Assembly: GCF_000153345.1 (NCBI RefSeq) | Contig: NZ_CH724126.1 | Location: 278,774 to 342,773, forward strand | Reading direction: 5' to 3' | From: Neptuniibacter caesariensis | GTDB lineage: Bacteria > Pseudomonadota > Gammaproteobacteria > Pseudomonadales > Balneatricaceae | Length of the DNA: 64,000 nt | Part shown: positions 12,503 through 36,633 of the stretch, piece by piece | Position numbering within the stretch: position 1 is the stretch's first letter | Layout: each line of letters begins with the position of its first letter | Notes under the pieces: model-generated | Database searches by the model: none | Seen by the model: only the letters and a program-made list of their open reading frames with translations | Told to the model about the DNA's origin: nothing | Made by a program: the position numbers and the translations under genes

Positions 12503-12530
12503 ATCGTTTTCCTATGATTGGTTCTTCTTA
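12499..12530 (+). terminator. Likely terminator of the tRNA-Leu operon
   Basis: ACCAATC and GATTGGT form a stem around a short loop starting in the CCA end of copy 2. The following TCTTCTTAGATATTTTCTT is T-rich but not a clean run. It overlaps the 3' end of the convergent GGDEF-EAL gene. Confidence 0.5.
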
Positions 12531-14642
12531 GATATTTTCTTCCTGTTTTAACTTTCTTTCCTTTTTGAAATAGCATCTCGCAAAGTTTTCTGCCGATATA
12601 GGTTTAGCAAAGAAGTAGCCTTGCGCCTGATCGCATCCTTGTTCTGCAAGAATAGTCGCCTGTACTTCGTGCTCCAGGCCTTCAGCGATCACGGTTAGGT
12701 TAAGACTGTGGCCGAGCGCAATGACGGCTTGGCAGATAGCGGCATCTTCAGGGTTTATTTCAAGTCCATCTACAAAGGATTTGTCGATCTTGAGCTTATC
12801 AAGGGGGAGTTTCTTAAGGTAAGCGAGCGATGAGTAGCCGGTGCCGAAGTCATCCATTGCCAGTCTTATACCGAGTGCTTTTAATTGCTCTAGTTTATGG
12901 ATCGCATCTTCCGGATCACTGAGGACACAGCTTTCAGTGATCTCAAGCTCCAGGTGCTGAGCATTCAACCCCGTTGTATGCAGGATATCGCTGATTGAGC
13001 CAGCAAGTTCTGGCGTATTCAGCTGTTTTGCGGAGAGGTTAACTGCCAGAGCAATTTGTGCTTCCCTTTCTCCATTCCACTGCGCCATTTGTTGGCAGGC
13101 TTTAGTCAAAATAATCGACCCAACCTGATGAATCAGTCCTTTCTCTTCTGCCAGTGGAATAAAGGTACAGGGGGGAATCAGGCCTTTTTCAGGGTGAATC
13201 CAGCGAGCCAGTGCTTCTACCCCGACTAACTTCCTGGTTTTGAGATCAAATTGGGGTTGGTAATAGACGGTTAATTGATCCTGTTGGATTGCCGACCTTA
13301 GCTCGCTTTCTAACTGGATTTTGGCCAGCGTATCTTGATTCATCAATCGGTTGTAGAAATGGAATGTATTGCCCCCCGCCTTTTTTGCCTGGTACATGGC
13401 CGAGTCTGCATTTTTCATCAGCTCTTGAGGGGTGGTGCCATCCTCAGGATACACAGCGATACCGATACTGGTGTTTAGATAGAGGGTTTGATCTTCATAT
13501 TCATAAGGCTCCTCTAAGCTGGCAATCAGCTTCTTAGCCAGCTCTGCCGCGTCTTTAGACTCATATAACGGATCGATGATCACGGTAAATTCATCGCCGC
13601 CGATCCGGGCTAGCGAGTCACTTTTACGTAGGGTGCTGGTAAAGCGGTGAGCCATTTCTATTAAGACGGCATCGCCGGCGCTGTGCCCCATTGAGTCATT
13701 GATCTGCTTGAACTTGTCCAGATCGATAAAGAATACCGCGGCCCTTCGCTTGTTTGTTGAGCAATGAATAATCACTTCATTCAGGCTCTTCAGAAAGGCT
13801 TCTCGGTTTGCCAGGCCGGTTAGACTGTCATGCTCTGCAATCTGCCTTAGGCTGTTTTTTTGCTGCTCTAGCTCAGATGTCCGCTTGCTGATCTCTTGTT
13901 GCAACTGGTCCACAGAGATTGTGCTGGCCTTCAGGCGATTGGTCATCTGATTAAAATGTTGTGCTAGCTGCGAGATTTCATCCTTCCGGCCGACATCGAT
14001 GGTGTAGTCCATCTTTCCTACAGACAGTTGCTTTATTCCTTGTTCTAACTCTTTAAGGCGGATGCGGAAAAGGCGTAAGGTCTGGAAAGCCGAAAGGGAA
14101 ATGAGTATGGCAAGTATGATTAGCATGCTCTGCATGAGTCTGGCCTTATACTCGCTTTCCTCTTGTGAGTTTTGCAGCGCGTGATCTGCTAAGCGAAAGC
14201 TGTCTTCGCTCATACTGAGAATAGAGCTATCTAAGCGATCCAGAAGGTAGTGATGATTGGCCTCTTCTTCGGCTTTAGAGAGGTTTGAGCTGTGCACCCT
14301 AAGCATATGCGCATACAGTGCGACAACGCTGTCACTTGAACGCTTCAGGCTGTTTAAAAACGTGAACTCGTTATTATGGGTGGGTTGTAACTGATCCAGT
14401 TGAAGCTGAAGATCTTTTAGTGTCTCGCCGCCCTGATGAATCGACTCGATATCATGATAGCGTTCATGAAGTCTGAATTGGCTCCGCAGCGTGCTAATTT
14501 GTACCTGAATACGGGAGATGGTGTTGATATGATTAAACAGGCTGGAACGTTGCTGATCCATCCATAGCAACCCTGCAACCATACCAAGACAAAGGGCCAC
14601 GGTTAGTGTGGCCAGAATGATTAATCGGTTTCTAATGCTCAT
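12528..14642 (-). CDS. Membrane sensor GGDEF-EAL protein (c-di-GMP metabolism)
   Basis: The protein has 704 residues. TM1 is at about 8-28, a helical periplasmic domain follows, TM2 is at about 168-190 and a HAMP linker at about 190-240, then a short coiled coil. The GGDEF domain has an intact GGDEF motif at 348-352 and the EAL domain an intact EAL at 476-478 (GVEALARW). The later DDFGTGYSSL and KIDKSFV motifs needed for phosphodiesterase activity are present. Both activities are therefore possible, and which dominates cannot be read from sequence. It lies 21 bases downstream of a solute-binding-protein gene on the same strand. The two probably form an operon in which the binding protein presents a ligand to the periplasmic domain (inference). 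Confidence 0.93.
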   Translation of the reverse strand: MSIRNRLIILATLTVALCLGMVAGLLWMDQQRSSLFNHINTISRIQVQISTLRSQFRLHERYHDIESIHQGGETLKDLQLQLDQLQPTHNNEFTFLNSLKRSSDSVVALYAHMLRVHSSNLSKAEEEANHHYLLDRLDSSILSMSEDSFRLADHALQNSQEESEYKARLMQSMLIILAILISLSAFQTLRLFRIRLKELEQGIKQLSVGKMDYTIDVGRKDEISQLAQHFNQMTNRLKASTISVDQLQQEISKRTSELEQQKNSLRQIAEHDSLTGLANREAFLKSLNEVIIHCSTNKRRAAVFFIDLDKFKQINDSMGHSAGDAVLIEMAHRFTSTLRKSDSLARIGGDEFTVIIDPLYESKDAAELAKKLIASLEEPYEYEDQTLYLNTSIGIAVYPEDGTTPQELMKNADSAMYQAKKAGGNTFHFYNRLMNQDTLAKIQLESELRSAIQQDQLTVYYQPQFDLKTRKLVGVEALARWIHPEKGLIPPCTFIPLAEEKGLIHQVGSIILTKACQQMAQWNGEREAQIALAVNLSAKQLNTPELAGSISDILHTTGLNAQHLELEITESCVLSDPEDAIHKLEQLKALGIRLAMDDFGTGYSSLAYLKKLPLDKLKIDKSFVDGLEINPEDAAICQAVIALGHSLNLTVIAEGLEHEVQATILAEQGCDQAQGYFFAKPISAENFARCYFKKERKLKQEENI

Positions 14643-14663
14643 TTACTACTGAACTACTAATAT

Positions 14664-15665
14664 CTATAAGGATGTTGCTCTTTGATCTATGGATTTCAGT
14701 AAAGAGGGATCCAGCACGGTAGAAAAGTTGGGTGAGGCATCCGTAGTAATAAGCCCGGATTCAATTGCCCAGTATGCTTGTTGTTCCAGTGAGACTAATA
14801 ACGACTGACTCAGCGACAGTTTGAACAAATAGTCTTGCCATATCCAGCTGATAAAGTCCTTGCTGAGTTTTAAGCGATGACGAAGGATCAGTTGCGATTC
14901 CTCCGGATGGCGAGAGATGTAATGGACCGCTTTATTCAGGGCAGTTAAAACGCGTTTCTTCTGTTCATCTTGCTCAGAGGAGCTGTTTTTCATACCCACC
15001 AGATTAAAAGACAGGTTGTACAGGCCTTTGGTTTCGATCAAGTGGGCTGTAGATTCCTTGGCTTTCGCTGTTTTGAAGGCGAAGGGCTCCCACACCGATA
15101 TCGCATCAACTTTTTCCGAATGTAGCGCCTCTGGCATTTCACTGACACTCAGAGGTACATATTCCACGCTGTCAGGGTTGGCCCCGCCTAAGGTTAACCA
15201 GGTATGGAAAAAGTATTCACTAGCGCTGCCTTTGACCACACCCACCTTGCGATGTTTGAAGTCATTCACCTGGGTAATCTGGTTCTTCTCCAGGGTCAGT
15301 AATTTAATATCATTATCAGACTCTACAAAGCTGGAAAGCACGGAGAAGTTGTCATGTTTAAAGCTGTTAAACATGATTACCGAGTTAGATGTGGTTGCCA
15401 GATCAACCTGGCCCTCCTGTAATGCTTTAAAACATTTTCCGCCCCCGGCAATATCGATAATTTCGACATTGACGCCTGCTTCACGAAAAAAGCCTCTTTG
15501 ATCTGCAATATAAAAAGGTGCTGACAAAGGCGTGGTCGAGACGGCTATCCTGATAGGGGCTTCCTGTTCGGATAGGGACGCGGTTTTTGATTGGGGTAAT
15601 AAGAAAACCAGCATCACAATGACAATAGTTAGAGCAGGGATTCCAATTTTGATCAAACCTTTCAT
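14664..15665 (-). CDS. NMT1/SsuA-type periplasmic solute-binding protein without ABC partners
   Basis: This 333-residue protein has an N-terminal hydrophobic segment (residues ~5-24) that may be a signal peptide or an anchor. A fold resembling the nitrate/taurine/thiamine-precursor binding proteins follows: IRIAVSTTPLSAPFYIADQRGFF, then VEIIDIAGGGKCFKALQEGQVDLA and VGVVKGSASEYFFHTWL. No permease or ATPase gene is nearby. The next gene is a membrane GGDEF-EAL protein 21 bases downstream. This layout points to a sensory binding protein rather than a transporter subunit. The ligand is unknown; relatives bind alkanesulphonates, nitrate or pyrimidine precursors. Confidence 0.85.
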   Translation of the reverse strand: MKGLIKIGIPALTIVIVMLVFLLPQSKTASLSEQEAPIRIAVSTTPLSAPFYIADQRGFFREAGVNVEIIDIAGGGKCFKALQEGQVDLATTSNSVIMFNSFKHDNFSVLSSFVESDNDIKLLTLEKNQITQVNDFKHRKVGVVKGSASEYFFHTWLTLGGANPDSVEYVPLSVSEMPEALHSEKVDAISVWEPFAFKTAKAKESTAHLIETKGLYNLSFNLVGMKNSSSEQDEQKKRVLTALNKAVHYISRHPEESQLILRHRLKLSKDFISWIWQDYLFKLSLSQSLLVSLEQQAYWAIESGLITTDASPNFSTVLDPSLLKSIDQRATSL

Positions 15666-15821
15666 GGTTACCTCGGATCACAGCAAAAAAAACAGTGCTC
15701 AAGATTAACAATCCTTTAAATTAGTATTCGCTCAATTATGCCGTGATGCAAGCGGTTCAGAGCGATTTTGTTGTTATAAATTGGTGGGAGCACGGAAATT
15801 TTTCAGAGGGGTGATCGAGAT

Positions 15822-15850
15822 CAAATTAAAAGCGCCCGAAGGCGCTTTGG
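15822..15850 (-). terminator. Rho-independent terminator after the 40-codon microgene
   Basis: On the minus strand AAAGCGCC-TTCG-GGCGCTTT forms an 8-bp stem with a stable UUCG tetraloop, followed by TTAATTT. It lies 19 bases past the microgene stop and ahead of the solute-binding-protein gene. Confidence 0.85.
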
Positions 15851-15868
15851 GGTGGGGTAATTGATGAG

Positions 15869-15991: not shown

Positions 15992-16015
15992 GGCCTGACT
16001 CCTCATATGCCAATG

Positions 16016-16045
16016 TTTATATTGGTTTAGCATTAAGGGTGCCAA
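16016..16045 (-). promoter_or_regulatory. Promoter of the microgene (sigma-70 and/or sigma-54-like)
   Basis: On the minus strand TTGGCA and TATAAA are separated by 18 bases, a reasonable sigma-70 promoter. The same DNA also reads TGGCAC-N5-ATGCT (16030-16044), one mismatch from the sigma-54 -24/-12 consensus, with the correct GG-to-GC spacing. Which one is used cannot be decided by eye. Confidence 0.5.
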
Positions 16046-16178
16046 GTTTTACGCTGTTCTTATCTGTCTGATTTTTAAATAGTTTTATTTGGTAGGGTTG
16101 ATGCTGTGCACTTGGGCTGACAGATTTGTCATGTCGTGAGTGGCAGTGGATGTCGAATGCATCAGTTGCTGTGTTGTC

Positions 16179-17810
16179 TTATTCGTCGGGGAGTGCTTTT
16201 TTGACGATAAGTGGTGTTTGAATACGAACATGAATCCCTTTATCAGAGTCTTGAAGAGAGATCCGACCACCGAGTTGTCTGGCAACAATGTTATAGACAA
16301 TAGACATGCCCAGGCCGCTGCCCCCTTTACCGCGTTTAGTGGTAAAAAATGGCTCAAAGAGTTTTTTGGCTTCTTCACTGGAGAGGCCACGACCGTCGTC
16401 TCGGTAATCCAAAATCAGATCACCATTATCGCTGCGCCCGGAAATGGAGATTGTGCCGCCTGTTTCCTTATCGAAACCATGAAGTGTCGTGTTGTTGATT
16501 AGATTGCTGAGTATTTGATGGTATGCACCCGGATAACTCTCCATCTCTATATCGGGTTCTACATCGATAGAAAAGTTAACATTACTATGCTTGTATTGCG
16601 GCAAAATTGTCTGGATTGAGGATTCAAGGTACTCATCAAAAGTAAAATGCTGGCAGGCATCATAGCTCTGGTCTGTTGCGATCTGTTTAAAGCTTGAGAT
16701 CAGTTTACTGGCTTTAACAATATTGGTTTCAAATAGGGTGCTGGATTCGTCTACGCCATCCAGAAAGTCGTTGAGGTCTGACTGGGTTAAGGTGCTGGAT
16801 TTCAGCTTGTCACGGATGATCTTGCTGTGATCCGCCTGAAAACTAGCTGCGGTTCGGCATACCCCGATCGGGGTGTTGATTTCATGAGCAACCCCGGCAA
16901 CCATATTCCCCAGGGCCGCCATTTTTTCCGTTTCGACTAGCAGGTCCTGGGCTGACCTTAAGTTATTCATAGAGTCCTGAAGCTGTTGGGTACGTTCTGT
17001 TACTTTCTCTTCAAGATGTTCTTTATGTTCTCTTTCGCTGACTAATAATGCATCTCGCTCTTTAACCAGTTCCTGAAGGTGTAGCTTATTTTGGTTTAGC
17101 TCTTCATAGGATTTATGCAGACTGCGGCACATCTGGTTAATGGTATTGGCAACGTTATCAATCTCGTCCTCTTTAGCTGGAGCGGTTTTTTTCTTTAACT
17201 GAAGCGGCTCTACAGTTCTGGTCAGATCGATATCTTTCAGATAATCAGAGATCGTTTTCAGGTGGCGGTTAAAGTAAAACCAGACCAAAAGCAGGATAAA
17301 ACCTGACACCAGGAATGTTTTGATGCCGTTGCTGATCAGAATAACCCCGGCTTTATTGATCAGACGCTGATAAACGTTATCGATGCTGGCGGTGACGCGT
17401 AATGAGCCAATGTTTTGCGAGGAAATTCCTGGTGCGGTGTAATCTAATGGGAGATCTACAGTCCGGTTCGCTGCTGATCTTGCCTCGCCCACTTCCCAGT
17501 TGATCTCACCATCGACAATGATTGAGACATATTCAATATCCGGGAGCTGGCTGAGACCGACGAGCTGGGTTTCTATCTGGGAATCATCCAAAGACCAGAC
17601 ACTGAGTGTTATGGCCTGAAGATAAGAGGTCTGAATGTTCTGGAACTGCTGCTCAATACGGCTTATATCTGCCCGGTAGTCTAAACCCAGCTGTAAAGAG
17701 GTGCTCAATAAGGTGAAGCATGAGCTAAAGAGTATGATCAGGATTGCAAACTTCTTGCCCAGGCGGCCTGAAGTGATTTTCTTGGGCAAACTTTGATCTT
17801 TTTGCTGCAT
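16179..17810 (-). CDS. Membrane sensor histidine kinase paired with the HD-GYP regulator
   Basis: The kinase has 543 residues from the preferred ATG at 17810. A TTG at 17822 directly after the upstream stop would add four residues. TM1 is near 20-45, a periplasmic domain of about 115 residues follows, TM2 is near 160-180, and a HAMP-like linker and coiled coil precede the catalytic core. The phospho-acceptor His is in GVAHEINTPIG (about residue 309), and the ATPase domain carries DDGRGL and GKGGSGLGMSIV motifs. Its core closely resembles that of the kinase at 21116-23053, including SSFKQIATDQ. It starts 12 bases after the DUF3369/HD-GYP regulator, which is its obvious partner. Confidence 0.93.
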   Translation of the reverse strand: MQQKDQSLPKKITSGRLGKKFAILIILFSSCFTLLSTSLQLGLDYRADISRIEQQFQNIQTSYLQAITLSVWSLDDSQIETQLVGLSQLPDIEYVSIIVDGEINWEVGEARSAANRTVDLPLDYTAPGISSQNIGSLRVTASIDNVYQRLINKAGVILISNGIKTFLVSGFILLLVWFYFNRHLKTISDYLKDIDLTRTVEPLQLKKKTAPAKEDEIDNVANTINQMCRSLHKSYEELNQNKLHLQELVKERDALLVSEREHKEHLEEKVTERTQQLQDSMNNLRSAQDLLVETEKMAALGNMVAGVAHEINTPIGVCRTAASFQADHSKIIRDKLKSSTLTQSDLNDFLDGVDESSTLFETNIVKASKLISSFKQIATDQSYDACQHFTFDEYLESSIQTILPQYKHSNVNFSIDVEPDIEMESYPGAYHQILSNLINNTTLHGFDKETGGTISISGRSDNGDLILDYRDDGRGLSSEEAKKLFEPFFTTKRGKGGSGLGMSIVYNIVARQLGGRISLQDSDKGIHVRIQTPLIVKKALPDE

Positions 17811-17822
17811 CACTTTCCGCAA

Positions 17823-19379
17823 TTAGTCCGGGAAGCTCTGACAGATATCCAGAATATCATCCAGATTCTCTTCGAAGAGCTTAATTAAATGAGGATCAAA
17901 GTGGCTACCGCTTTGCTCTTTCATAAAACTCAGTGTTTTATCAACGGGCCAGGGTTCTTTGTAGCAGCGCGCACTATTCAAGGCGTCAAAGACATCGGCG
18001 ACGGCTGAGATTCTGCCCGCGAGAGGGATCGCATCATCTGAAAGCCCTTTCGGGTATCCTGAACCGTCCCATTTCTCATGATGGTTACCCGCGATTTGGG
18101 CGGCTAGCTGAAAGATCGGTCGATCCGAGTTTTGCAGCATGCTTGCACCAATCTCAGCATGGGTCTGCATAATGGCCCATTCATCTGGGTCCAGTTTGCC
18201 AGGCTTATTGAGGATCGCATCTGGGATCGCTATTTTTCCTAAGTCATGCAAGGGAGAGGCTAAGCGGATATTATCAACGTAGAGTTCGTTACAACCACAG
18301 GCTTTAGCCAGCACTGCCGATATTTCGGCAACACGCTTAACGTGGGCGCCAGTCTCTTTTGAACGTTTTTCTACCGCCTCGCCAAGGATATAGATCAGCT
18401 CTTCCTGGGTATGCTGGATCTCTTCTTTTAGTAGCAATGTATGATAAGTGGAGATGACATCGGCACTAAAGATCTCCAGTAAGTGTTTGGCGTGTTCGTC
18501 AATATTACTATTATGTTTGATGTAGAGCAGGCTCTCTGCACCCGATACGCCCGCATGGTAGGCGATGTAGCCATGTTCAGTATGCAGCGAACGTTTCTGT
18601 TCTAGTGCCTGATTAAAAACCTTCTGTAACTCATTGGGCAGCTCGACCTCATCGTAGTCTATTGTGGCCATGCTGGTTTCAGCCTCCTGCAGTAAAGACT
18701 CCATGGCGCCCGTAGCGGCAAGCACGGTAAACCTTGGTTTGTCTTTGTAGATTCTGCGAGTGCTGCAATAAATTGAATCAGGCTCGAAATTCAGCAGAGA
18801 GATCAGTTGGCTAAGAATGGCCGATGCTAGACGGCTGAGGGAATTAATCTGGTTAATATGACCGATTGCGTGGATAACGGTTTCCAGCGAGCTACGCTGG
18901 TGGTCAATGGTCTGAATATCGCGATAAGAGCGCAAAGAGGAATAGAGCAGGGTTTTTAGCTTTGTGCCGGTGAGCTCAGTTTTATCCTTGTAGTCGTTAA
19001 TGTCGTATTCTTGAATGATCTGTTCTTCAGGAGCCTGACCGGGTTGCCCGGTACGAAGAACAATACGTGTCATTTCATTATGAAGGTCGTCGCGAATCAC
19101 CTGAACCAGACGTAATCCGGCATCATCCGTTTCCATGACCACATCAATCATTGCCAGGGCGATGTTGGTACCTTCTTGCTCTAAGATAGCCTTGGCTGCG
19201 GCTCCCGAATGAGCTTCAAGAAGTTCAATGGGGCGCCCATCGAAGGTGACATCTTTGAGAACTAACTGTGTAACACGATGAACACTCTCCTCATCGTCAA
19301 CAATCAGTACCTTCCAGGGAGGGAGGCCCGGTTGTGATGCGATCGGATCCTCCGCTGCGAAAAGAAGGGTATCTGTCAT
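17823..19379 (-). CDS. Response regulator with DUF3369 and HD-GYP domains (c-di-GMP phosphodiesterase)
   Basis: The protein has 518 residues. The receiver domain (about 22-150) has acidic residues D28/D29 and phospho-acceptor D79 in MIDVVMETDDAG. A DUF3369 region (about 170-320) links it to an HD-GYP domain. HD is at 378-379 in SPLHDLGKIA and HHEKWDGSGYP at 433-443, so the catalytic motifs are complete and it should hydrolyse c-di-GMP. It begins the two-gene unit with the kinase at 16179-17810. Its N-terminal half is clearly paralogous to that of the EAL regulator at 24192-26426, with shared RIILRTGQPGxAPE and YDINDYK motifs. Confidence 0.93.
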   Translation of the reverse strand: MTDTLLFAAEDPIASQPGLPPWKVLIVDDEESVHRVTQLVLKDVTFDGRPIELLEAHSGAAAKAILEQEGTNIALAMIDVVMETDDAGLRLVQVIRDDLHNEMTRIVLRTGQPGQAPEEQIIQEYDINDYKDKTELTGTKLKTLLYSSLRSYRDIQTIDHQRSSLETVIHAIGHINQINSLSRLASAILSQLISLLNFEPDSIYCSTRRIYKDKPRFTVLAATGAMESLLQEAETSMATIDYDEVELPNELQKVFNQALEQKRSLHTEHGYIAYHAGVSGAESLLYIKHNSNIDEHAKHLLEIFSADVISTYHTLLLKEEIQHTQEELIYILGEAVEKRSKETGAHVKRVAEISAVLAKACGCNELYVDNIRLASPLHDLGKIAIPDAILNKPGKLDPDEWAIMQTHAEIGASMLQNSDRPIFQLAAQIAGNHHEKWDGSGYPKGLSDDAIPLAGRISAVADVFDALNSARCYKEPWPVDKTLSFMKEQSGSHFDPHLIKLFEENLDDILDICQSFPD

Positions 19380-21115: not shown

Positions 21116-23053
21116 TCAGAGCGCTGAAGGGAAGTGAAGTTTCATGGTTGTGCCTTTACCAGGCTCGCTTTGGACACAGATCTGCCCTTCAAGCACATTA
21201 CTTATCAGGTTATGCACAATATGCAGCCCCAGCCCGCTTCCTCCCTGGCCTAATTTTGTCGTATAGAAAGGGTCAAAGATTGAATTGATCATATCCTGGG
21301 TCATCCCCTTACCGTCATCAGTCACGATCAATTCCACTGTCCTATCGTCCAGATAAGACGCAGAGATAGAAATATGCCCTGGGGTTTTATCGTCGAAAGC
21401 ATGCACCAACGCATTCTGGATAAGATTGGTTAAAATCTGGGAAAGTGCACCAGGAAAACTGTCCAGATGGATAGTGCCTTCTAATGAGCTAGTGACCTCT
21501 ATGCGGGTTTTTTTCAATTGTGGGCGGAGGGTGGTTAAGACTTCATTGATGTGTTGACCGAGTTCGAAGCGGCGCTTTTTCGCGCTGGATTGATCGACCG
21601 CAACCTGCTTAAAGCTATGAATCAACTCTGATGCCCTGTACAGGTTTTTGACGAGGATCTCGCTACCTTCAGAAGATTCATGAATGAAGTGGTCAAAGTC
21701 TTTTTTGGTTAATTGGTTCTGATCTGTTTTTTTGACAACTTTGTCGACACTCTCTTTGAGTGTGGTTGCGGCCATCAAGCTGTTACCTATGGGGGTATTC
21801 AGTTCATGGGAAACGCCTGCGACCAGCGAGCCTAAAGCGGATAATTTTTCAGAATGGATCAGTTGCTCTTGGGTCAGTTTTAAATCGTGAAGGGTTTGCT
21901 CAAGTTCCGCATGTGAATGGCGTAGATCTTCCGTACGCTCTTCTACTCTTTGCTCCAATTCGGTGTTGAGCTGGGTAATATGGTTCTCGCGCTTCTCAAT
22001 CTCCTGACCTGTTTTATTCAGGTCTTCCCTAAGTTTATAGAGTTCCAGAATACGTGAATATTGCGGTGTCTCTGAATACTTACCACGGGCCAGGGATCTG
22101 GCCTGGCGGGCCGTATCGTAAAAACCCATAACCAGCTCTTTGGTCAACAACAGGGCAATAAACATGGCTGAAACAATTCCGATCAGCACGGCCGCGATAA
22201 AAATATCCCTGATCGCAGCTTGCTCCCCCTCTAATAGCTTCTGAGGTTGGGCAACAATGACCATCCAGTTAAGGTTAGGTATCAGGGTAGCGCTGCCAAT
22301 AAATTGCTGATTATCGAACTCAAAGGGGATGCTAAGAGATTCGCCTGCATCGGTCCTTTGTACAAGTTCCAGGTTGGATAGGTTGATCTGCTGCTGGCTT
22401 AGTTGTGCATCAGGGTGAGCGATTAGTTGCTTGTTTTGGTCAAGAACCATAACCGTGACGTTGTTTTGCTTTGCCAGCTTCTCAACGAGCTTTGGCAGTT
22501 CTTCTATGGCTATCTCCCCGACCAACACGCCTTCAATGAAGGGCTGGGAATAGGCAATCGATAAGCTACCGCTGATGGTAGATAAGTATTCGTTTGACCA
22601 CTGTGCGATATTTCTTTCTTTGATACCTTTGAATACGTGGCTGTTACTCATATCCAGGTTCAAATAGGTTTGGCGCATAAACTGGCGGTGGCTAGGTAAG
22701 CCGATGTTTCTGATATGGCCTTTGTTGTCTGTAATATAGATCGCGCTAAAGTACGCTTGGTTGTTGGTATAGATATTCAGTAAGTCATATTGCTCGGTTA
22801 ACAAGGTTTGCTCTTGCATGGCAAAGGATGCCAGCACATTAATATCGGACTCTGCATTGGCTAAATAGGTCGTGATCTGGCCGGCAATCGAGTTGGCAAG
22901 GGCCTGTTGGTTAATGAAAATATTCTGATTGATTCTGGGTAGGAGTAAAAAAATTGAGAGAAGGCTGGCAATAACAATAGGTACTGCCGCAACGATGAGA
23001 AACTGCGTAGATAGAATTGCGCGTAGTGACCAGAAGGTTGTCTTCGCTGCCAT
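21116..23053 (-). CDS. dCache-type sensor histidine kinase
   Basis: The kinase has 645 residues. TM1 is near 15-38, a large periplasmic region of about 240 residues with a double-Cache-like appearance (YFSAIYITDNKGHIRNIG, LVGEIAIEELPK, LIPNLNWMVIVAQP) follows, and TM2 is near 284-308. A coiled coil comes next, then a HisKA-type core with H416 in GVSHELNTPIGN and ATPase motifs DDGKGM and GQGGSGLGLHIV. The solute-binding lipoprotein gene ends four bases before its start, so the pair probably senses a ligand together. The DUF3369-EAL regulator upstream in the same operon is the likely phosphorylation partner. Its core is paralogous to the kinase at 16179. Confidence 0.93.
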   Translation of the reverse strand: MAAKTTFWSLRAILSTQFLIVAAVPIVIASLLSIFLLLPRINQNIFINQQALANSIAGQITTYLANAESDINVLASFAMQEQTLLTEQYDLLNIYTNNQAYFSAIYITDNKGHIRNIGLPSHRQFMRQTYLNLDMSNSHVFKGIKERNIAQWSNEYLSTISGSLSIAYSQPFIEGVLVGEIAIEELPKLVEKLAKQNNVTVMVLDQNKQLIAHPDAQLSQQQINLSNLELVQRTDAGESLSIPFEFDNQQFIGSATLIPNLNWMVIVAQPQKLLEGEQAAIRDIFIAAVLIGIVSAMFIALLLTKELVMGFYDTARQARSLARGKYSETPQYSRILELYKLREDLNKTGQEIEKRENHITQLNTELEQRVEERTEDLRHSHAELEQTLHDLKLTQEQLIHSEKLSALGSLVAGVSHELNTPIGNSLMAATTLKESVDKVVKKTDQNQLTKKDFDHFIHESSEGSEILVKNLYRASELIHSFKQVAVDQSSAKKRRFELGQHINEVLTTLRPQLKKTRIEVTSSLEGTIHLDSFPGALSQILTNLIQNALVHAFDDKTPGHISISASYLDDRTVELIVTDDGKGMTQDMINSIFDPFYTTKLGQGGSGLGLHIVHNLISNVLEGQICVQSEPGKGTTMKLHFPSAL

Positions 23054-23056: not shown

Positions 23057-24163
23057 TTATTCCAATACGACAAACTTGCCTTGTTCAACACGTGTTACAA
23101 ACGTCTTGCTCTTACCATCACCATAGGCATCCAGTTTCAGGGGCCCTTGTACTCCCTGGTAACTATTAAGATTCAGCATGGCTTGCTTCAAATCTTTCTC
23201 GTCGGACTGCATCCCCTGAAAAACCATTCTGGCCGCTTCATAACAAAACAGCCCGGGAAAGCCCGGTGCATTTTTGAAACGTTTCTCAAAAGTTGTTTTG
23301 AAATTGATAAAACCCATGTCATTACTGGAGCGGTTGATATATTGCGGGACATACATGTTCTCAGTATAGATCCCACCGAGTTCGATCAATCGCTCAGTGC
23401 CGGCCCACTCCGATGAGGCAATGATCAGATCAGGATTTTTAACCCTGATCTGTTTCGTAATCAGTGCGGCATCCACCGAATTCATGGAAAGCAGGATTAA
23501 GGATGGATTGTGTTTGAGGGCCGTGTTGGCGATACCAACAAAGTTACTATCCGCACCAGAAACATAAGACTCAGTGGCTACTAGCTCGCCACCATTGCTC
23601 TCGAAGGTTTTTTTAAAGCCTTGTAACCAGCTTTCTGTGTAGGCGCGATTCCCAAAATCCAGTATCGCAACCGCTTTTGATGCTCCAGGTTCATATTGAT
23701 TGAGAAGCTTAGCAAGCTTGCCGGAATGTTCAGAGATGGCACTCAAGGGACGCATAAAGTAATCATCGATGCCGGTGAGTTGATCTGTAGTGACGGTGCA
23801 AGCCATCATCAGCGTTTCAGCCTGATTGATCTGATCTACTGTGGCAACGGCCATTGCGCTGGTCATTGGACCAATAATTGCGTCAACCTCTTCTGCGATG
23901 AGCTCATCTATCAATGTTTGGGCGAGAGCCGGCTGTTGTTGATCATCTTTGTAGATGGGCTGTATTTTGCGGCCATTGATCCCGCCCCGAGCATTTTGCT
24001 CTTCAAGCGCCAAAGTAAAGCCATTCCTCCCTGCGGTGCCTAGGTCGGCCACCCGGCCAGATGTTCCGCCGATGAAGCCTACTTTAATCGGTTCTTCCTC
24101 TGCACAGCCAACGAGCAGAGTGAACAGACATAAACTTGCGAGCCGACCTTTGCCTGACAGCAT
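23057..24163 (-). CDS. Branched-chain-amino-acid-type solute-binding lipoprotein (sensory)
   Basis: This 368-residue periplasmic-binding protein (Peripla_BP_6, LivJ/AmiC-like) carries a lipobox, LFTLLVGC, with Cys at residue 20. The opening IKVGFIGGTSGRVADLGTAGRNGFTLALEEQNARGGINGRKI and the VDAIIGPMTSAMA region are characteristic of type I binding proteins for branched amino acids, amides or urea. No Liv-type permease or ATPase is nearby. The gene sits between the DUF3369-GGDEF-EAL regulator (28-base gap) and the dCache kinase (3-base gap), so a sensing role is more likely than transport. The ATG at 24163 follows GGAG. Confidence 0.9.
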   Translation of the reverse strand: MLSGKGRLASLCLFTLLVGCAEEEPIKVGFIGGTSGRVADLGTAGRNGFTLALEEQNARGGINGRKIQPIYKDDQQQPALAQTLIDELIAEEVDAIIGPMTSAMAVATVDQINQAETLMMACTVTTDQLTGIDDYFMRPLSAISEHSGKLAKLLNQYEPGASKAVAILDFGNRAYTESWLQGFKKTFESNGGELVATESYVSGADSNFVGIANTALKHNPSLILLSMNSVDAALITKQIRVKNPDLIIASSEWAGTERLIELGGIYTENMYVPQYINRSSNDMGFINFKTTFEKRFKNAPGFPGLFCYEAARMVFQGMQSDEKDLKQAMLNLNSYQGVQGPLKLDAYGDGKSKTFVTRVEQGKFVVLE

Positions 24164-24191: not shown

Positions 24192-26426
24192 TTATCCTTG
24201 CTTGGCTATATGCCCATCTAACCAGATCTCTAATGATTTCATATCCATAGGTTTACCGAAGAAATAACCCTGGGCTTCAAAGCAATTAAGGCCTTTGAGG
24301 CGACTGACCTGCTCTTGTGTCTCAACCCCCTCAGCAATCACTGACATGTCCAGATCCCGTCCAAGGTTTATGATCATTTCCGGAATATAGGTGCCTGCGT
24401 TCTCATTGGACATCTTATCGATAAACGACTTATCAATTTTAAGACGATCAAAGTGCAGCGTTTCGAGGTAACTCAGACAGGAAAAGCCGGTTCCAAAATC
24501 GTCGATAGCGACTTGCGCACCCAGATCATGGATCTGCTTCAGGGTGGCGCGGACAGTATCAATATCCATCATCGCCACCGATTCAGTGATTTCAAATTCG
24601 ACCTGATTTCGAGAAAGGTTGAATTTGTTCAGCTCAGTTTTAATGGTGTTGAGAAAGTTAGGGTGCCTGAACTGTACCGGAGAGATGTTGATACCCATCT
24701 GTAGGCCCAGAGCATAGCGATTCTCCAGATGTTCCAGATCCCGCAGGGCTGAACACATAATCCATTCACCCAACTGAACAATCAAACCTGAACTTTCGGC
24801 CACAGGGATAAACTGGTCGGGGGGGATCATGGTGCCATTGTGCGTTTTCCAACGAATCAGTGCCTCCAGGCCATTAATTTTACCGGTATTCAGATCTATC
24901 TGTGGCTGGTAAACCATAAACAGTTCATGTTCTGCATGGGCTTTGCGTAACCCTTGCAGCATGAGCATGCGTTGATGGGTTTCTTTCTCTATCTCATGGG
25001 TGTATTCAACGGCATCACCGCGGATAATGTCTTTGGCCCGTTTCAGGGCGATGTTGGCCCGTTTGATCGCATCATTTCCGCTAACGTTGGCATCACGCAA
25101 CACGTAAAAGCCCTGGGTCGTGGAGATGACGATTTCGTCACCAAATAAGGTGAATGGTTTCTCGACGAGTTCAGTGACCGTCTCTGGTGAGAGATTGTGT
25201 GCTGAGCCCATTATCCCAAAGGTGTCACCGGATACACGGCTTACAAAAGTACCTTCTGGCAGATTTTTAGTCAGCCGTTGCGCAACAAGCCTAAGCAGCT
25301 CGTCACCGGTATTGGTTCCCAGGGTATCGTTTATACCGCTGAAGTGGTCGATATCGATCAGGCAGATCAGCTGATCATCCGCGGCACTTGCCATCATCTT
25401 ATCGATGTACCGGGCGAACGAAACACGGTTTGGAATTCCCAGAAGCGAATCAAAGTAGGCGTAGTTATGTAAGCGGTCGAGGATCGTTGCATTGTCCAGG
25501 CAGACCGAAATGTTGCTACAGAAAACCTCTAGTAGTTGATGCTCGGTTTCTTCCAGTGCCCTATGCAGGTCAAGATAGAGCATCATGTCATCACGGAACT
25601 CACTGGGAAAGTAGAGAACACAATCAGAACCGCCGTCAACGCTGCGTCGCTTCATAGCAGCATCTAACAGCATCGCCATAATATTGGGGTCCTCGAGTAC
25701 CTCTTCATTCTGTGCAACGGATCGTTGCCCGGAGGCTGCGACCACGGCAAAGTCCGCCGTAGTGGGACCTTTCTGCTTATCATGGGAGCTTTTTATGCAG
25801 ATCATGCCCTCTTCGGGGGTACCTAATAGCGCAGCTAACTGGGTAATAATGCCGTTTGCTAATTCACGTATGCCGTGTAATGACATCAATTCGCTGGAAG
25901 CATGAACAATCTGTTCAAGGCCTTTTCTACTGGTATCTAGTGCTTGAATCTCAGAATAAGAGCGAATGGCTGCCGTGACAGAGGTATAAAGCCGGGTTCG
26001 GGTTAAATCGGCTTTATTTTTATAATCGTTAATATCGTATTTGAGGATAACCTCTATTTCAGGGGCATAGCCTGGCTGACCTGTTCGCAGGATAATGCGG
26101 GTGCTTTTACGGCCTAAATCCTCGCGGATCACCTTTACCAGCTCGAGACCTGCACTTTCAGTCTCCATGACTACGTCGAGCAGGATAACCGCAACTTCAT
26201 GAGTCTCTCGAAGAATTTCAGTGGCTTCTTTGGCGGAATATGCATGGAGTAGCTCTAAAGGCTGACCAAGGAACACCAAACCTTTTAAACCAAACTTTGT
26301 CGCTTCATGGACATCCCGATCGTCATCGACGACCAGTACTTTCCAAGGCCTTGAACTTAGTTGGTTTGCTGAGACAACATTTTCGTTACTCTCCTCTTCA
26401 GCAAAGACAATGAGCTCATCAGACAT
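24192..26426 (-). CDS. Response regulator DUF3369-GGDEF-EAL with degenerate GGDEF
   Basis: The protein has 744 residues from the ATG at 26426, preceded by GAGGG with seven bases between. A TTG start at 26432 is possible but unnecessary. The receiver has phospho-acceptor Asp in ILLDVVMETESAG (about residue 98), then a DUF3369 region, a GGDEF domain and an EAL domain. The GGDEF signature is replaced by SGDTF at about 399-403, so cyclase activity is probably lost. The EAL motif at about 521-523 (GLEALIRW) with DDFGTGFSCL and KIDKSFI is intact, predicting c-di-GMP phosphodiesterase. It is the first gene of an operon with a binding lipoprotein and a kinase. Confidence 0.93.
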   Translation of the reverse strand: MSDELIVFAEEESNENVVSANQLSSRPWKVLVVDDDRDVHEATKFGLKGLVFLGQPLELLHAYSAKEATEILRETHEVAVILLDVVMETESAGLELVKVIREDLGRKSTRIILRTGQPGYAPEIEVILKYDINDYKNKADLTRTRLYTSVTAAIRSYSEIQALDTSRKGLEQIVHASSELMSLHGIRELANGIITQLAALLGTPEEGMICIKSSHDKQKGPTTADFAVVAASGQRSVAQNEEVLEDPNIMAMLLDAAMKRRSVDGGSDCVLYFPSEFRDDMMLYLDLHRALEETEHQLLEVFCSNISVCLDNATILDRLHNYAYFDSLLGIPNRVSFARYIDKMMASAADDQLICLIDIDHFSGINDTLGTNTGDELLRLVAQRLTKNLPEGTFVSRVSGDTFGIMGSAHNLSPETVTELVEKPFTLFGDEIVISTTQGFYVLRDANVSGNDAIKRANIALKRAKDIIRGDAVEYTHEIEKETHQRMLMLQGLRKAHAEHELFMVYQPQIDLNTGKINGLEALIRWKTHNGTMIPPDQFIPVAESSGLIVQLGEWIMCSALRDLEHLENRYALGLQMGINISPVQFRHPNFLNTIKTELNKFNLSRNQVEFEITESVAMMDIDTVRATLKQIHDLGAQVAIDDFGTGFSCLSYLETLHFDRLKIDKSFIDKMSNENAGTYIPEMIINLGRDLDMSVIAEGVETQEQVSRLKGLNCFEAQGYFFGKPMDMKSLEIWLDGHIAKQG

Positions 26427-26585
26427 ATACAACCCTCAGACGACATGAATACTCTTAAGTTAAGCACAGATCTGGGAAAAAAAAGGAAAAATTCCCGTAT
26501 ATTAGTCATGACTCAAGTTACATTAATCTATCCTGAATTTATACGCCTTTCGCGGTTGGTGAGGATCATCCCTTAATAACGAATA

Positions 26586-28145: not shown

Positions 28146-28146
28146 C

Positions 28147-29013: not shown

Positions 29014-29026
29014 TATGGGTCTCCAC

Positions 29027-32591: not shown

Positions 32592-33422
32592 ATGGATCTG
32601 GGTGAACTGAATGGGCCTGTTCTGGTTTTTGGCGGGCCCTATAGTAATTTGTCGGCCACGCGTGAGATGAAACGGATCGCTGAGCAGCAGGGTATACCTG
32701 CTGCATCGGTTATCTGTACCGGTGATCTGGTTGCGTATTGTGCTGATCCAACTGAGACCGTTTCACTTATTCGGGAGTGGGGCTGTCATGTGGTGATGGG
32801 GAATTGTGAAGAATCCCTGGCCGCCAGTGCACCGGATTGCGGTTGTGGGTTTGATGAAGGTTCTGCCTGTTCGTTGTTATCTGTGCAGTGGTATGCCTAT
32901 GCGAACAACAGGGTGAGCCCAGAGCAGAAATTCTGGATGGGCGGGTTACCCCGACAGTTAAGGTTCTCTTTATCAGGTCGGCAGTTCCATGTGCTTCATG
33001 GCAGCGTTACCAGTATCAACGATTTTATCTTTGCGAGCACTGACCATGGTTACAAGGCGAAGCAGCAACAGTCTGTATCAGCTGAAGTCATCATTGGGGG
33101 GCATAGCGGGCTGCCTTTTGTCTCAGAAACGACAGAGGGCTACTGGCTAAATGCCGGGGTCATCGGTATGCCTGCGAATGATGGTACATCGGATTGCTGG
33201 TATATGTTGCTGGAGCCACAGGCTGAGGGTATTAAGGCCAGTTGGCACCGTTTAACTTATGCGGTTAATGAAACGGTCGAGAGCATGAAAAAAGCTGAAA
33301 TTAGTGCTGCTTATGCCACCTGCTTACAGAATGGCTTGTGGCCTAGCCTGGATATTCTTCCTGAGCAGGAAAAGCGCCAAACTGGAAAAGCGATTGAGCT
33401 CAGGCCGATTTTAATTCGCTAA
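32592..33422 (+). CDS. Metallophosphoesterase-superfamily protein with altered metal motifs and a Cys cluster
   Basis: This 276-residue cytoplasmic protein has a calcineurin-like layout: TGDLVAYC (43-50), GNCEE (70-74), VLHGS, GGHSG and NAGVIGMPAND. The first motif, normally DxH, reads GGPYSN (14-19), and the usual GNH is GNC. A cysteine group, C72, C83, C85 and C93 (NCEESL, DCGCGF, SAC), could bind a metal. These changes appear to be a trait of this subfamily, as far as I recall, so activity may differ from standard phosphoesterases. AAGG precedes the ATG. Its 3' end overlaps the convergent GGDEF gene by 23 bases. Confidence 0.85.
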   Translation: MDLGELNGPVLVFGGPYSNLSATREMKRIAEQQGIPAASVICTGDLVAYCADPTETVSLIREWGCHVVMGNCEESLAASAPDCGCGFDEGSACSLLSVQWYAYANNRVSPEQKFWMGGLPRQLRFSLSGRQFHVLHGSVTSINDFIFASTDHGYKAKQQQSVSAEVIIGGHSGLPFVSETTEGYWLNAGVIGMPANDGTSDCWYMLLEPQAEGIKASWHRLTYAVNETVESMKKAEISAAYATCLQNGLWPSLDILPEQEKRQTGKAIELRPILIR

Positions 33423-35259
33423 CGACACGGTTACGTCCACGACGTTTAGCCGCGTAGAGATTGTTGTCTGCGGCATCGAGTGCCGCCTCTAGGCTTATAA
33501 AGCGTCGACAAGCCTCAACGGCGCCAATACTAATCGTGTAGTGAATCTGTTCATCTGCTGAGGTGACCGGACTGTGCTCAATCAGTTCGCGTAAGCGCTC
33601 CAGACCGATCTCGGCTTCTGGCAGGGGCTGGTTCAGAATCAGGGCAAACTCCTCTCCGCCAATCCGTGCAACCAGATCACTTTGGCGCATATGTTCTGTG
33701 AGGTGCCTGGCGAGTTCAACTAATACATCGTCCCCCACACTGTGACTATGTTCATCGTTGATTCGTTTGAAATAATCAATATCGATCATAGCGATGGTCA
33801 GCGGGTTTCGGGTGCGCAGGTGGTATTGCCACTCTTTGTTCCCTGCGATGGAGAAACCGCGCCGGTTTAGTAATCCTGTCAGAGGGTCGGTAATAGCCTG
33901 GGTATGCAATTTTTGCTTTTCGTCTTCGAGTGCCTGAAGGGCTGCTTTAAGTTTCTCTTCCGACTCGTGAAGGGCGACATTTTGCCGAGCTAATTCAACG
34001 GTATTGCGCTCTTTTTGCAGTACCAGGCGATTCAGATTAGTGATCATCGTACTGAAAGCGTTCGCCATCGAATGAATTTCCGCAGTCTCAGATATCTGGC
34101 GTCGGTCCACTTTGACACTCAGATCTCCGTCAGCAGCTTTCGTGGCAAGTGCCTCAATATACTCGATTGGATGGGTAATACGCTGGGCCAGGAAATAAGC
34201 GATAGCTGAACTGAGCAGGATAAAAACGATACAGATATAGAATATCTGCTTCTGGATATCATTCAGGCCCGCATAAAATTCATCGAGATCAGCGCTGGCG
34301 CCGATGACCCAATCCCATTCAGAAACGTAGGTTACCGCTGCTGCTTTAGGATGCGGTTTTTCCTCACCAATATTGCGCCACTGATAGTAGATCATTTTGC
34401 TATCGCCGATCGGTTGGGAGATAGCTTGATTGACCATATACTGGACCAGCGACTGACCATTCTGGTCGATGACATTGGACATGTTCTCCCCGTCCCGCAA
34501 ATGATCTCTGGAGACGATGTACTCACCTTTACTGTTCAACACCCATATGTAACCTCGGTCGCCGATACGCTCAATCGCCAATCGGTTTCTCAATTGATTT
34601 TGCAACTTACGCTCAAATGCTGTGCTCTTGTAATCGGTCTCATTGATTGTGACACCTAAAACCATCTGCCAGTTTTCAAGGTAAGCTAGCGCTGTTTGGC
34701 GGTAATGATAGTTACCTTTTTCGGTGAGGTTCCAGGGGTAGCGAATAGAGATGATTTCACCGGAAAGCAACAGAGGCATTGCTTCCTCGATGAGACCTAA
34801 AAAGTGGTTATAAAAGCGCGGGCGACTGTGGTTTTCTAATAGGGCGCTGTTAAAGACAGGGGAATTATTGTCATCAAGCAAAAATATATGGCCGCCCCGG
34901 TTCAAGCGAATGTCGGAGAGTTTTTGCAGTATTCGATGTGGGTCAGGATCTTCACCTTCTATTTTGGGTTTCATGGAAACGGGAAGGGTTAATAAGACCT
35001 GTTGGCTGGTCAGAGCGATCGATTCTATGCGTTTTAAAACCAGGGCCTCTTCACGTTTGAGTACCCTGTCTTTTTGCTCAATAAACGTATTGGCAAGGGC
35101 GTGCATCTCTTCACTACGCTGTTTTAGCTGTGATTCCAATGCTGACTCGGCAAAGCTTTGATAAGAGTAATAGCCAAGCGCGCCCATGAGTGTCGTAGGT
35201 ATGGTTACCAGTACGACACAAAGCAGCATTAATTCCCATTTCAAACCGGGGCGCTTCAT
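33400..35259 (-). CDS. dCache-HAMP-GGDEF diguanylate cyclase
   Basis: The protein has 619 residues. TM1 is at about 9-31, followed by a large periplasmic double-Cache domain (GGHIFLLDDNNSPVFNSALL, then GYIWVLNSKGEYIVSRDHLRDG). TM2 is at about 339-361, followed by a HAMP linker, a coiled coil and a GGDEF domain. The active-site motif GGEEF at 534-538 is a functional variant, and there is no EAL domain, so it should synthesise c-di-GMP. It begins three bases after the stop of a family 1 solute-binding protein, implying that the binding protein and the Cache domain act together. Confidence 0.95.
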   Translation of the reverse strand: MKRPGLKWELMLLCVVLVTIPTTLMGALGYYSYQSFAESALESQLKQRSEEMHALANTFIEQKDRVLKREEALVLKRIESIALTSQQVLLTLPVSMKPKIEGEDPDPHRILQKLSDIRLNRGGHIFLLDDNNSPVFNSALLENHSRPRFYNHFLGLIEEAMPLLLSGEIISIRYPWNLTEKGNYHYRQTALAYLENWQMVLGVTINETDYKSTAFERKLQNQLRNRLAIERIGDRGYIWVLNSKGEYIVSRDHLRDGENMSNVIDQNGQSLVQYMVNQAISQPIGDSKMIYYQWRNIGEEKPHPKAAAVTYVSEWDWVIGASADLDEFYAGLNDIQKQIFYICIVFILLSSAIAYFLAQRITHPIEYIEALATKAADGDLSVKVDRRQISETAEIHSMANAFSTMITNLNRLVLQKERNTVELARQNVALHESEEKLKAALQALEDEKQKLHTQAITDPLTGLLNRRGFSIAGNKEWQYHLRTRNPLTIAMIDIDYFKRINDEHSHSVGDDVLVELARHLTEHMRQSDLVARIGGEEFALILNQPLPEAEIGLERLRELIEHSPVTSADEQIHYTISIGAVEACRRFISLEAALDAADNNLYAAKRRGRNRVVSELKSA

Positions 35260-35262
35260 AGA

Positions 35263-36633
35263 TTACTCTCTGTAGTAACCGGATTGTTCAAAGGTTTGCT
35301 CCCACTCCTGGGCTAAGTTATCCAGAGTATCTTTTGCCGAGATACTGTCGTGATTCAGGTAAAAACTCCAATGTTGCTGGGATTGCTTTAACAGTTCGGC
35401 GTATTCAGGCACCGCCCAGAAATCTTCGACAAACTCAAAAGATTCGCTGAAGGCCTGATGCATAGGTGATGCATCCAGGAACCTGGCTGATTTGAGCACC
35501 TCTATGTGACAGCTCAGCCCACCTAGTTCAGACCACTTCTCCTGAGTCTTTTTGCTAATGAACCATTCCAGAAACTGCAAGCTGTACTCTTTCTTTTTAG
35601 AGTAGCTGATCAGAGAGATTCCTTGCCCACCAAGGGAAGTTGCACGTGCTGCGGGACCCGCTGGCGTTGAAAAGAACCCCATTTCATTGGCATAAGGGTT
35701 TTTAGCAGGGTCAAGCAGTTCGGGGGTTATCGCAAAATAAACCATAGTCATGGCGACTTTACCCTCGATCATGGGCTTGTTTGAGCTGGCTTCGGTATCA
35801 AGGTAATAATTTCGCCAGTCCGGGTTGCTTAGCTGAACCAGTTGTTTATAAAACAGCAATGCTTCAGCCGCCTCCACAGAGTTCAGAATCCCTTTAACCT
35901 GATAACTTTCCTGATCACCCAGTCCGGCCCCCCAGCCCCAGAGTAGAGTCTGCATAGCCATTGTCAGTCCATCGTAATAGGGCTCCTGCCATGCCATAAG
36001 CCCCCATAGGTCTTCTGCCGGTCGATAGAAAAATTCAGCGATATCCCTGAGCTGAAACCAGGTTTTGGGAACATCCAGCTCATAGCCATAACGAGCCGAA
36101 AAGGCGGCTTTTTCTGCTGGATCATTGAAGAGGTCTTTACGGTATGCAAAGCCCATGGCGTCGCCTTCTACCGGAATCGCCCAATACCTTTTACTGCCTT
36201 TGGGATATTCGGAATAGCCTTTGAGAGCCGTGCTGATGAACTGCTCTTCAACACTGTGGCGTTTCATCCAGTGGGTCAGATTGACATAGTGGCCTTGCTC
36301 CGCTCCGTACCCCAGCCATTGTGAGTCACCAATCACCATGTCATAGCGTTGGCTTTTATGGCCCATTTCGTTGGCGAAATGTTGCTGCCAGTCAGACCAG
36401 GAACGTTGGGTGATGTTTACTTCGATGCCGGTCTCTTTGGAAAATTCCCGGGTGAGCTTTTGCAAATAGTCTGCGGGTTTCCATTCAGCCCAGAGAATAT
36501 TGAGGCTGGGTGCGGGTTTCTGTTCAATAAAAACACGCGCCTCTCCACCATGCGGCGTGGGTGAGGGAATAATTAAAATAGCTGTCGCAACAGCCACAAG
36601 GATCATGGCTGATATCAAAGTGAATCTTTTCAC
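35263..36633 (-). CDS. Family 1 extracellular solute-binding protein without ABC partners
   Basis: This 456-residue protein has an N-terminal hydrophobic signal or anchor (residues ~5-24) and the SBP_bac_1 fold of carbohydrate-binding proteins. Recognisable parts are LNILWAEWKPADYLQKLTREFSKETGIEVNI, then RYDMVIGDSQWLGYGAEQG and the C-terminal EYSLQFLEWFISKKTQEKWSELGG. The start is a GTG codon (GTG AAA AGA), with no ATG in frame nearby. The permease and ATPase genes usually found beside it are absent. The dCache diguanylate cyclase gene follows after three bases, so a ligand-presenting sensory role is likely. The ligand may be a sugar or glycerol-phosphate-like compound (family knowledge only). 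Confidence 0.9.
   Translation of the reverse strand: MKRFTLISAMILVAVATAILIIPSPTPHGGEARVFIEQKPAPSLNILWAEWKPADYLQKLTREFSKETGIEVNITQRSWSDWQQHFANEMGHKSQRYDMVIGDSQWLGYGAEQGHYVNLTHWMKRHSVEEQFISTALKGYSEYPKGSKRYWAIPVEGDAMGFAYRKDLFNDPAEKAAFSARYGYELDVPKTWFQLRDIAEFFYRPAEDLWGLMAWQEPYYDGLTMAMQTLLWGWGAGLGDQESYQVKGILNSVEAAEALLFYKQLVQLSNPDWRNYYLDTEASSNKPMIEGKVAMTMVYFAITPELLDPAKNPYANEMGFFSTPAGPAARATSLGGQGISLISYSKKKEYSLQFLEWFISKKTQEKWSELGGLSCHIEVLKSARFLDASPMHQAFSESFEFVEDFWAVPEYAELLKQSQQHWSFYLNHDSISAKDTLDNLAQEWEQTFEQSGYYRE

Follow-up and report, generated by a model that had tools for sequence, protein, structure and literature searches.

The window analysed here, a 64,000-nucleotide (nt) stretch of the Neptuniibacter caesariensis genome (contig NZ_CH724126.1, positions 278,774 to 342,773), carries genes for three solute-binding proteins (SBPs) of different families, each 3-28 bases from genes for cyclic di-GMP (c-di-GMP) enzymes or a kinase by Pfam domains and open reading frame (ORF) coordinates. 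An NMT1/SsuA-like SBP adjoins a GGDEF-EAL gene, a LivJ-type lipoprotein lies between a dCache kinase and a REC-DUF3369-EAL regulator, and a sugar-type SBP adjoins a Cache-GGDEF gene (Table 1). These pairs had been described in a first-pass annotation of the window, and its coordinates and spacings (21, 3, 28 and 3 nt) proved exact. They are probably three independent SBP-coupled receptors, of the NspS-MbaA or XylFII-LytS kind, which steer c-di-GMP. Gene order, domains, conserved pairing, co-occurrence, the lack of a matching permease among those inspected, a sensor domain shared by the NMT1 partners and intact motifs are the observations behind this explanation, and the newest part of the locus is the widespread module of an NMT1 SBP and a sensor with a predicted four-helix domain.

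Among 116 genomes of the same family (Balneatricaceae), the NMT1 SBP is present in 20, and in 13 of the 19 genomes other than the host it is followed directly by a GGDEF-EAL gene. In one genome (G114), a kinase gene and then a REC gene stand between the SBP and a GGDEF-EAL gene. In 14 of the 116 genomes the partner's sensor region was found near full length, beside the NMT1 SBP in all 14, and five further genomes gave only a partial match (residues 117-238, mostly the HAMP side). In the window protein the GGDEF, I-site and EAL motifs are all intact, and this HAMP-GGDEF-EAL receptor is a putative bifunctional diguanylate cyclase and phosphodiesterase. AlphaFold2 predicts an SBP fold for the NMT1 protein, with a helix at its start (mean predicted local distance difference test, pLDDT, 92.7, lower at the N-terminus), and judged by eye the protein is likely membrane-anchored at this end. 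Its closest solved folds by Foldseek are SsuA and TauA, and its score against SsuA_fam TIGR01728 of NCBIfam (94.6 bits) is below the curated cut-off of 163.5. The closest structures do not single out a ligand, since they include SsuA/TauA as well as HMP-binding, nitrate and bicarbonate proteins. Family sequences were compared in alignment A1 (19 of the 20; L080, with an over-called start, was omitted), and wider sets in alignments A4 (33 of 72 partners plus the window protein) and A5 (31 of 79 NMT1 relatives plus the window protein). Residues S43, T91, S93, N118-D119, K121 and W192-E193-P194 of the SBP are invariant across 32 aligned sequences, which suggests one ligand type in common.

The pairing is also found well outside the family. 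When GTDB genomes were scanned with the NMT1 alignment, 148 relatives emerged, and the best 80 of them were analysed. The SBP ORF was recognised by script in 79 of the 80 loci, and 77 were assessable after exclusion of L170 and L188 (contig ends) and of L145, where the overlap filter had removed an SBP ORF that is present and followed by one same-strand ORF. In 72 of these 77 the next same-strand gene encodes a sensor, with GGDEF (57), GGDEF+EAL (11) or kinase (4) output. The hosts include Vibrio, Shewanella, Psychromonas, Salinivibrio, Motilimonas, Marinobacterium, Competibacter and others, and V. mimicus (L179) and V. metoecus (L189) are among those that carry the pair. The gap between SBP and partner genes is often -4, a layout typical of translational coupling, and reaches 78-280 nt in a few loci. 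No permease was found near any of the relatives' loci, a search made with a small reference set and hence weak evidence; an ABC (ATP-binding cassette) ATPase, probably ZnuC, is present in four Neptuniibacter loci. One locus (L154), with an NMT1 SBP and a PAS hybrid kinase, is on a contig labelled as a Chitinophagaceae metagenome-assembled genome and is possibly misbinned proteobacterial DNA. Conserved pairing in related genomes, which the first-pass annotation had proposed as a check, was therefore found both within the family and across genera.

The sensors of these partners were compared over the stretch between the two transmembrane (TM) helices only, using phmmer (E <1e-3) and single-linkage clustering. 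A periplasmic domain of ~140 amino acids is common to all 72 partners and the window protein, which form one cluster, kinases included; the four kinase-linked domains each directly match the GGDEF+EAL-linked domain of L184 (E 1.3e-7 to 4.3e-20). Seven sensors from the host genome were offered as controls. The dCache kinase was uncut by the TM rule, and the six tested, four of which pair with other SBP types, all remained outside the cluster. Since a single sensor-domain cluster spans GGDEF, GGDEF+EAL and kinase outputs, the SBP tracks the sensor domain and not the output. The domain has no Pfam match above cut-off in the four proteins checked (E up to 1). Residues 1-262 of the window protein were modelled with AlphaFold2 as an all-helical bundle (mean pLDDT 89.3, pTM 0.65), with a four-helix periplasmic bundle as the predicted fold class. 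Foldseek matches this model to 5xsj_L, a 122-residue chain of the XylFII-LytSN complex that we take to be LytS (root-mean-square deviation 1.9 Å over 123 columns, TM score 0.87 on the target, E 0.027, sequence identity 8%), and also to a chain of the QseG-QseE complex.

The LivJ-type SBP has an LVGC lipobox by eye, and its Cys20 is invariant in the alignment. It was found in seven of the 116 family genomes (E up to 1e-40) and the dCache-kinase sensor in the same seven (E up to 1e-15), adjacent every time. The DUF3369-EAL regulator precedes the SBP in six of the seven and was not recognised within 12 kb around the pair in G054. In G059 the regulator is kept without the SBP or the kinase sensor, as if these two had been lost or gained as one unit. 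The regulator has a degenerate GGDEF motif (SGDTF) and an intact EAL motif; it is therefore probably a phosphodiesterase, and likely the output of the dCache kinase. As for the ligand, the window SBP is identical to LivJ at the residues aligned with S79, T102, Y150 and E226, which are presumably contacts to the amino-acid backbone, and differs at positions 18, 202 and 276, so that leucine, isoleucine and valine are unlikely. The comparison points to another alpha-amino acid as the probable ligand, and the relatives in G057, G062 and G068 deviate at one or two of the four backbone-contact equivalents.

The sugar-type SBP occurs in six of the family genomes and lies beside a Cache-GGDEF gene in five, and the Cache sensor was found in exactly the same five. 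The partner has GGEEF and I-site motifs. With shared ancestry and linkage ignored, the chance of exact set agreement would be 6e-9 for sets of five in 116 genomes and 2e-11 for the sets of seven given by the LivJ-type pair. The sixth sugar-type relative (G097, L107; 34-35% identity) is found among MalFGK-type transporter genes and has a classic cleavable signal peptide by eye, which suggests how the sensor form of this SBP could have arisen. Classic cleavable signal peptides are also seen by eye in most transporter-linked SBPs of the host genome, and the window sugar-type SBP, judged in the same way, is likely anchored in the membrane at its N-terminus. Anchoring is not a rule for paired SBPs, because L038 and L039 of the host are paired SBPs with cleavable-looking peptides.

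The absence of a transporter in the window, as claimed in the first-pass annotation, is not literally correct. The window has no permease of PF00528 or PF02653 (other ABC families in its 39-64 kb part were not scanned), but the genes at 8599-11636 are read as a ZnuBC-Zur-ZnuA locus, a transporter with its own SBP. Among the window proteins scanned with Pfam, no ABC transporter other than this ZnuABC-type locus was identified. Elsewhere in the host genome, each of the five sites with LIV-type permeases has an SBP of its own alongside, and 16 of the 22 PF00528 permease matches were inspected, all with an SBP in the cluster (NMT1, SBP_bac_1, OpuAC, SBP_bac_11, PBP_like_2, SBP_bac_3 or SBP_bac_5); the remaining matches are at C3:688084, C3:689200, C4:413957, C4:415073, C4:178027 and C4:179629. 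A cognate permease elsewhere in the genome would have told against the idea that the SBPs serve signalling, and no orphan permease for the window SBPs was found among these five sites and 16 matches. The TAXI proteins L005-L007 were considered as NMT1 orphans and set aside, with DctM beside two of them.

A census of the host genome covered 23 SBPs above cut-off (9 NMT1, 8 of 9 Peripla_BP_6 and 6 SBP_bac_1), with one further transporter-linked SBP_bac_1 match (L191) outside it. Seven of the 23 are adjacent or fused to GGDEF proteins, compared with 0.7-1.4 expected from an approximate gene count. By our own assignment, 13 are linked to ABC or TRAP (tripartite ATP-independent periplasmic) transporters, seven to GGDEF proteins and three to neither, namely a TAXI protein (L026), a 606-residue protein (L034) and a polyamine-type SBP beside a glutamine-synthetase-family gene (L036). 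GGDEF linkage is seen in none of the 13 transporter-linked SBPs and in seven of the other ten (Fisher P 4.9e-4), these seven being the three in the window, L031, L038, L039 and the fusion L023. The fusion is a natural 747-residue NMT1-SBP_bac_3-GGDEF protein (L023:6700-8943, contig C3). L039 (7826-11213, contig C5) is a PotD/PotF-like SBP gene overlapping a GGDEF-EAL gene, a probable NspS-MbaA-type pair, and L031 (7460-10456, contig C3) is a UrtA-like, lipoprotein-looking SBP abutting a HAMP-GGDEF gene with no transporter recognised beside it. At L026:6102-12660 (contig C5), a CHASE5-type kinase related to that of the window lies between two TAXI-family SBPs, with a DctM gene after the second.

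In the mechanism that would best account for these pairs, each SBP goes back to the binding protein of an ABC transporter but has ceased to supply a permease; its roles are now to bind a ligand and to dock on the periplasmic part of the neighbouring sensor. The NMT1/SsuA-like SBP would dock on the four-helix domain and shift the GGDEF-EAL protein between making and degrading c-di-GMP, in the manner of NspS acting on MbaA, and the sugar-type SBP would dock on the Cache-GGDEF cyclase. The LivJ-type lipoprotein would dock on the dCache kinase, which would phosphorylate the neighbouring REC-DUF3369-EAL phosphodiesterase. Two receptors would thus act on c-di-GMP enzymes directly, and the signal of the third would pass via a kinase to a response-regulator phosphodiesterase. 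Co-transcription, docking, ligands, the direction of c-di-GMP change and kinase-regulator specificity are the parts of this explanation that we infer. The earlier suggestion that the SBPs present ligands to sensors is well supported for each pair taken separately, going by conserved adjacency, co-occurrence and the fact that no permease inspected was an orphan. The NMT1 pair adds the modelled four-helix fold, which belongs to a class that is known to bind SBPs.

Several observations weigh against this explanation. In five genomes of the same genus (L067, L069, L070, L071 and L073), that is, in five of its eight NMT1-bearing members with the host included, the NMT1 SBP stands alone with no partner gene adjoining, and no NMT1-partner sensor was detectable genome-wide in these five. 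Their lone SBPs keep most of the conserved motifs in the alignment and may have another sensor, partner or role, or may be being lost. Partner-less loci also make up five of the 77 assessable relatives, namely L149 and four from Neptuniibacter; N. pectenicola and N. marinus are examples of partner-less species. In a mirror-tree test on 67 pairs, co-evolution of SBP and sensor was not favoured, with a partial r of 0.35 for SBP and sensor vs 0.54 for SBP and GGDEF. The likeness to LytS backs a docking mechanism at the level of fold class only, as four-helix bundles easily resemble one another, and the top Foldseek match of the sensor model is NarQ (E 2.9e-4), above LytS (E 0.025-0.027). NarQ is a direct nitrate sensor that works without an SBP, and Cache and dCache domains can likewise bind ligands directly. 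Finally, the genomes in which SBPs and sensors co-occur share ancestry and so are not independent.

The lone SBPs of the five congeners would fit proteins that still serve transport through permeases elsewhere, their position beside c-di-GMP genes being incidental. SBPs encoded apart from any transporter genes have been described (PMC9602780), and the sugar-type relative L107 sits with MalFGK-type genes. Moreover, with 113 GGDEF matches in the host genome (3.92 Mb, 6 contigs), adjacency to a GGDEF gene is weak evidence by itself. Chance adjacency in such a GGDEF-rich genome was nevertheless rejected on co-occurrence and cross-genus conservation. The transport explanation is very unlikely in view of the permeases inspected, all of which have SBPs of their own, of a pairing conserved across genera, and of the joint presence or absence of SBP and sensor for the LivJ-type and sugar-type pairs. 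Alternatively, the Cache or helical domains of the sensors could bind ligand themselves while the SBPs scavenge or concentrate it without touching the sensor, as the frequency of direct ligand sensing by dCache and Cache domains and the NarQ match would allow. A mere scavenger would not need to stay with one particular sensor domain whichever of three outputs this carries, as the NMT1 SBP does, and docking has precedents in XylFII-LytS, MBP-Tar and NspS-MbaA; we regard this alternative as quite unlikely.

Independence of the three receptors is a separate question, as the first-pass annotation had proposed one sensing hub for three ligand classes. Such a hub could act on a shared local c-di-GMP pool and be selected as a cluster. 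G068 keeps the three pairs in the same order over about 31 kb and also has the CHASE5/HD-GYP unit and the MASE3 protein there, and G059, G061 and G063 retain parts of the cluster on one contig. However, the host and G068 are the only two of the 116 genomes with all three pairs, each pair also occurs without the others elsewhere, other genes separate the pairs in the window and GGDEF matches are numerous genome-wide. A functional hub is thus rather unlikely, and what was found is a physical cluster of separate gene blocks.

Further genes of the locus are included in Table 1. The CHASE5 kinase and the REC-DUF3369-HD-GYP protein form a second DUF3369 phosphodiesterase two-component unit, which is kept in G068, G063 and G059. 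A single-domain response regulator (11643-12071) lies downstream of the NMT1/GGDEF-EAL pair, and ORFs of about that size come after the NMT1 pair in two other genomes (G068, G063) and after the unpaired SBP of G062. Between the signalling pairs, at 27009-29037, a gene of the Rieske ring-hydroxylase alpha subunit family adjoins one of the fatty-acid hydroxylase family.

Table 1. Signalling and transporter genes of the window; coordinates are window positions.
Feature	Coordinates	Strand	Basis and remarks
ABC-3 permease	8599-9393		Pfam-based scan
ABC ATPase	9387-10163		Pfam-based scan
FUR-family regulator	10160-10651		Pfam-based scan
ZnuA-family SBP, divergent	10701-11636		Pfam-based scan
HAMP-GGDEF-EAL receptor	12528..14642	-	Pfam, motifs, AlphaFold2, Foldseek, sensor homology; TM-(predicted four-helix periplasmic domain)-TM-HAMP
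NMT1/SsuA-like SBP	14664..15665	-	Pfam; 21 nt upstream of HAMP-GGDEF-EAL receptor gene
CHASE5 histidine kinase	16179..17822	-	Pfam; H-box and G-box; no SBP adjoining
REC-DUF3369-HD-GYP response regulator, putative phosphodiesterase	17823..19379	-	Pfam; HD and GYP motifs
dCache_1 histidine kinase, partner of LivJ-type SBP	21116..23053	-	Pfam; H- and G-boxes; co-occurrence
LivJ-type Peripla_BP_6 lipoprotein SBP	23057..24163	-	Pfam; 3 nt before dCache_1 kinase gene
REC-DUF3369-GGDEF(degenerate)-EAL response regulator	24192..26432	-	Pfam, motifs, operon conservation; LivJ-type SBP gene 28 nt after
Cache-HAMP-GGDEF diguanylate cyclase	33400..35259	-	Pfam, motifs, co-occurrence
SBP_bac_1 sugar-type SBP	35263..36633	-	Pfam, alignment; 3 nt before Cache-HAMP-GGDEF gene
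MASE3-GGDEF-EAL protein	36743..39301	-	Pfam; upstream of SBP_bac_1 pair; adjoins same pair in G068

To our knowledge, the inputs of most c-di-GMP enzymes are unknown. A recurring SBP-sensor module would offer a direct handle on this problem, as the ligand of a soluble SBP may reveal the signal of a cyclase in dozens of bacteria. A wider proposal, held tentatively and with slightly less than even confidence, is that the four-helix domain and the NMT1 SBP lineage form a two-gene module that passes one conserved small-molecule input to three outputs (diguanylate cyclase, bifunctional GGDEF-EAL protein and histidine kinase) across Vibrio, Shewanella, Psychromonas, Salinivibrio, Marinobacterium and others. 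In Neptuniibacter, on this proposal, two more SBP receptors have been stacked onto the module, giving a single locus through which three classes of nutrient would act on c-di-GMP.

Compared with known systems, the window pairs can be set beside NspS-MbaA of Vibrio cholerae and Sinorhizobium meliloti, in which NspS controls c-di-GMP, import is unnecessary for signalling and the SBP gene lies directly upstream of a transmembrane GGDEF-EAL gene, with a 16-bp overlap in V. cholerae (PMC8079147, PMC9993111). Similarly, the NMT1 and SBP_bac_1 SBP genes are adjacent to and co-directional with transmembrane GGDEF/EAL genes; the NMT1 partner has, by TM prediction and model, a periplasmic domain between two TM helices together with intact catalytic motifs, and the Cache-GGDEF partner combines a sensor domain with intact catalytic motifs (Pfam, motif check). 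The LivJ-type SBP departs from this arrangement, adjoining kinase and REC-EAL genes. NspS is PotD-like and senses polyamines, whereas the window SBPs are NMT1/SsuA-like, LivJ-like and sugar-like; none of them gave a PotD/PotF match in Pfam or NCBIfam, and they are not NspS orthologues, the PotD-like SBP of the host being L039.

ArtI of Salmonella, a periplasmic arginine-binding protein, is also part of a transporter. Both ArtI and the dCache cyclase STM1987 are required for a c-di-GMP response (PMC8846402); in the window, unlike this case, SBP and cyclase genes are adjacent and no transporter was found for them. In XylFII-LytS of Clostridium beijerinckii (PDB 5XSJ) the SBP contacts helices H3/H4 of a four-helix periplasmic sensor (PMC9769921), and the NMT1-partner sensor model resembles chain L of that complex. 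LytS, which is partnered by an SBP for xylose, is a histidine kinase, whereas the window output is GGDEF-EAL. Furthermore, in ScrB-ScrC of Vibrio parahaemolyticus a c-di-GMP enzyme with two activities is switched by a signal-binding protein of the periplasm, and the genes share an operon (PMC10269520); there, the signal is made by ScrA of the same operon. CdgH and RmcA likewise use an SBP fold as the input of a GGDEF protein, but as fused family-3 domains, and the window SBPs are separate proteins of other families. A pairing of an NMT1-family SBP with a cyclase was not found described among the papers listed by the literature searches, judged by titles, the openings of abstracts and some passages, in a library that lacks most subscription papers and every bioRxiv preprint. 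SBP-coupled c-di-GMP receptors are already known, and the NMT1 pairing would add another SBP family to them.

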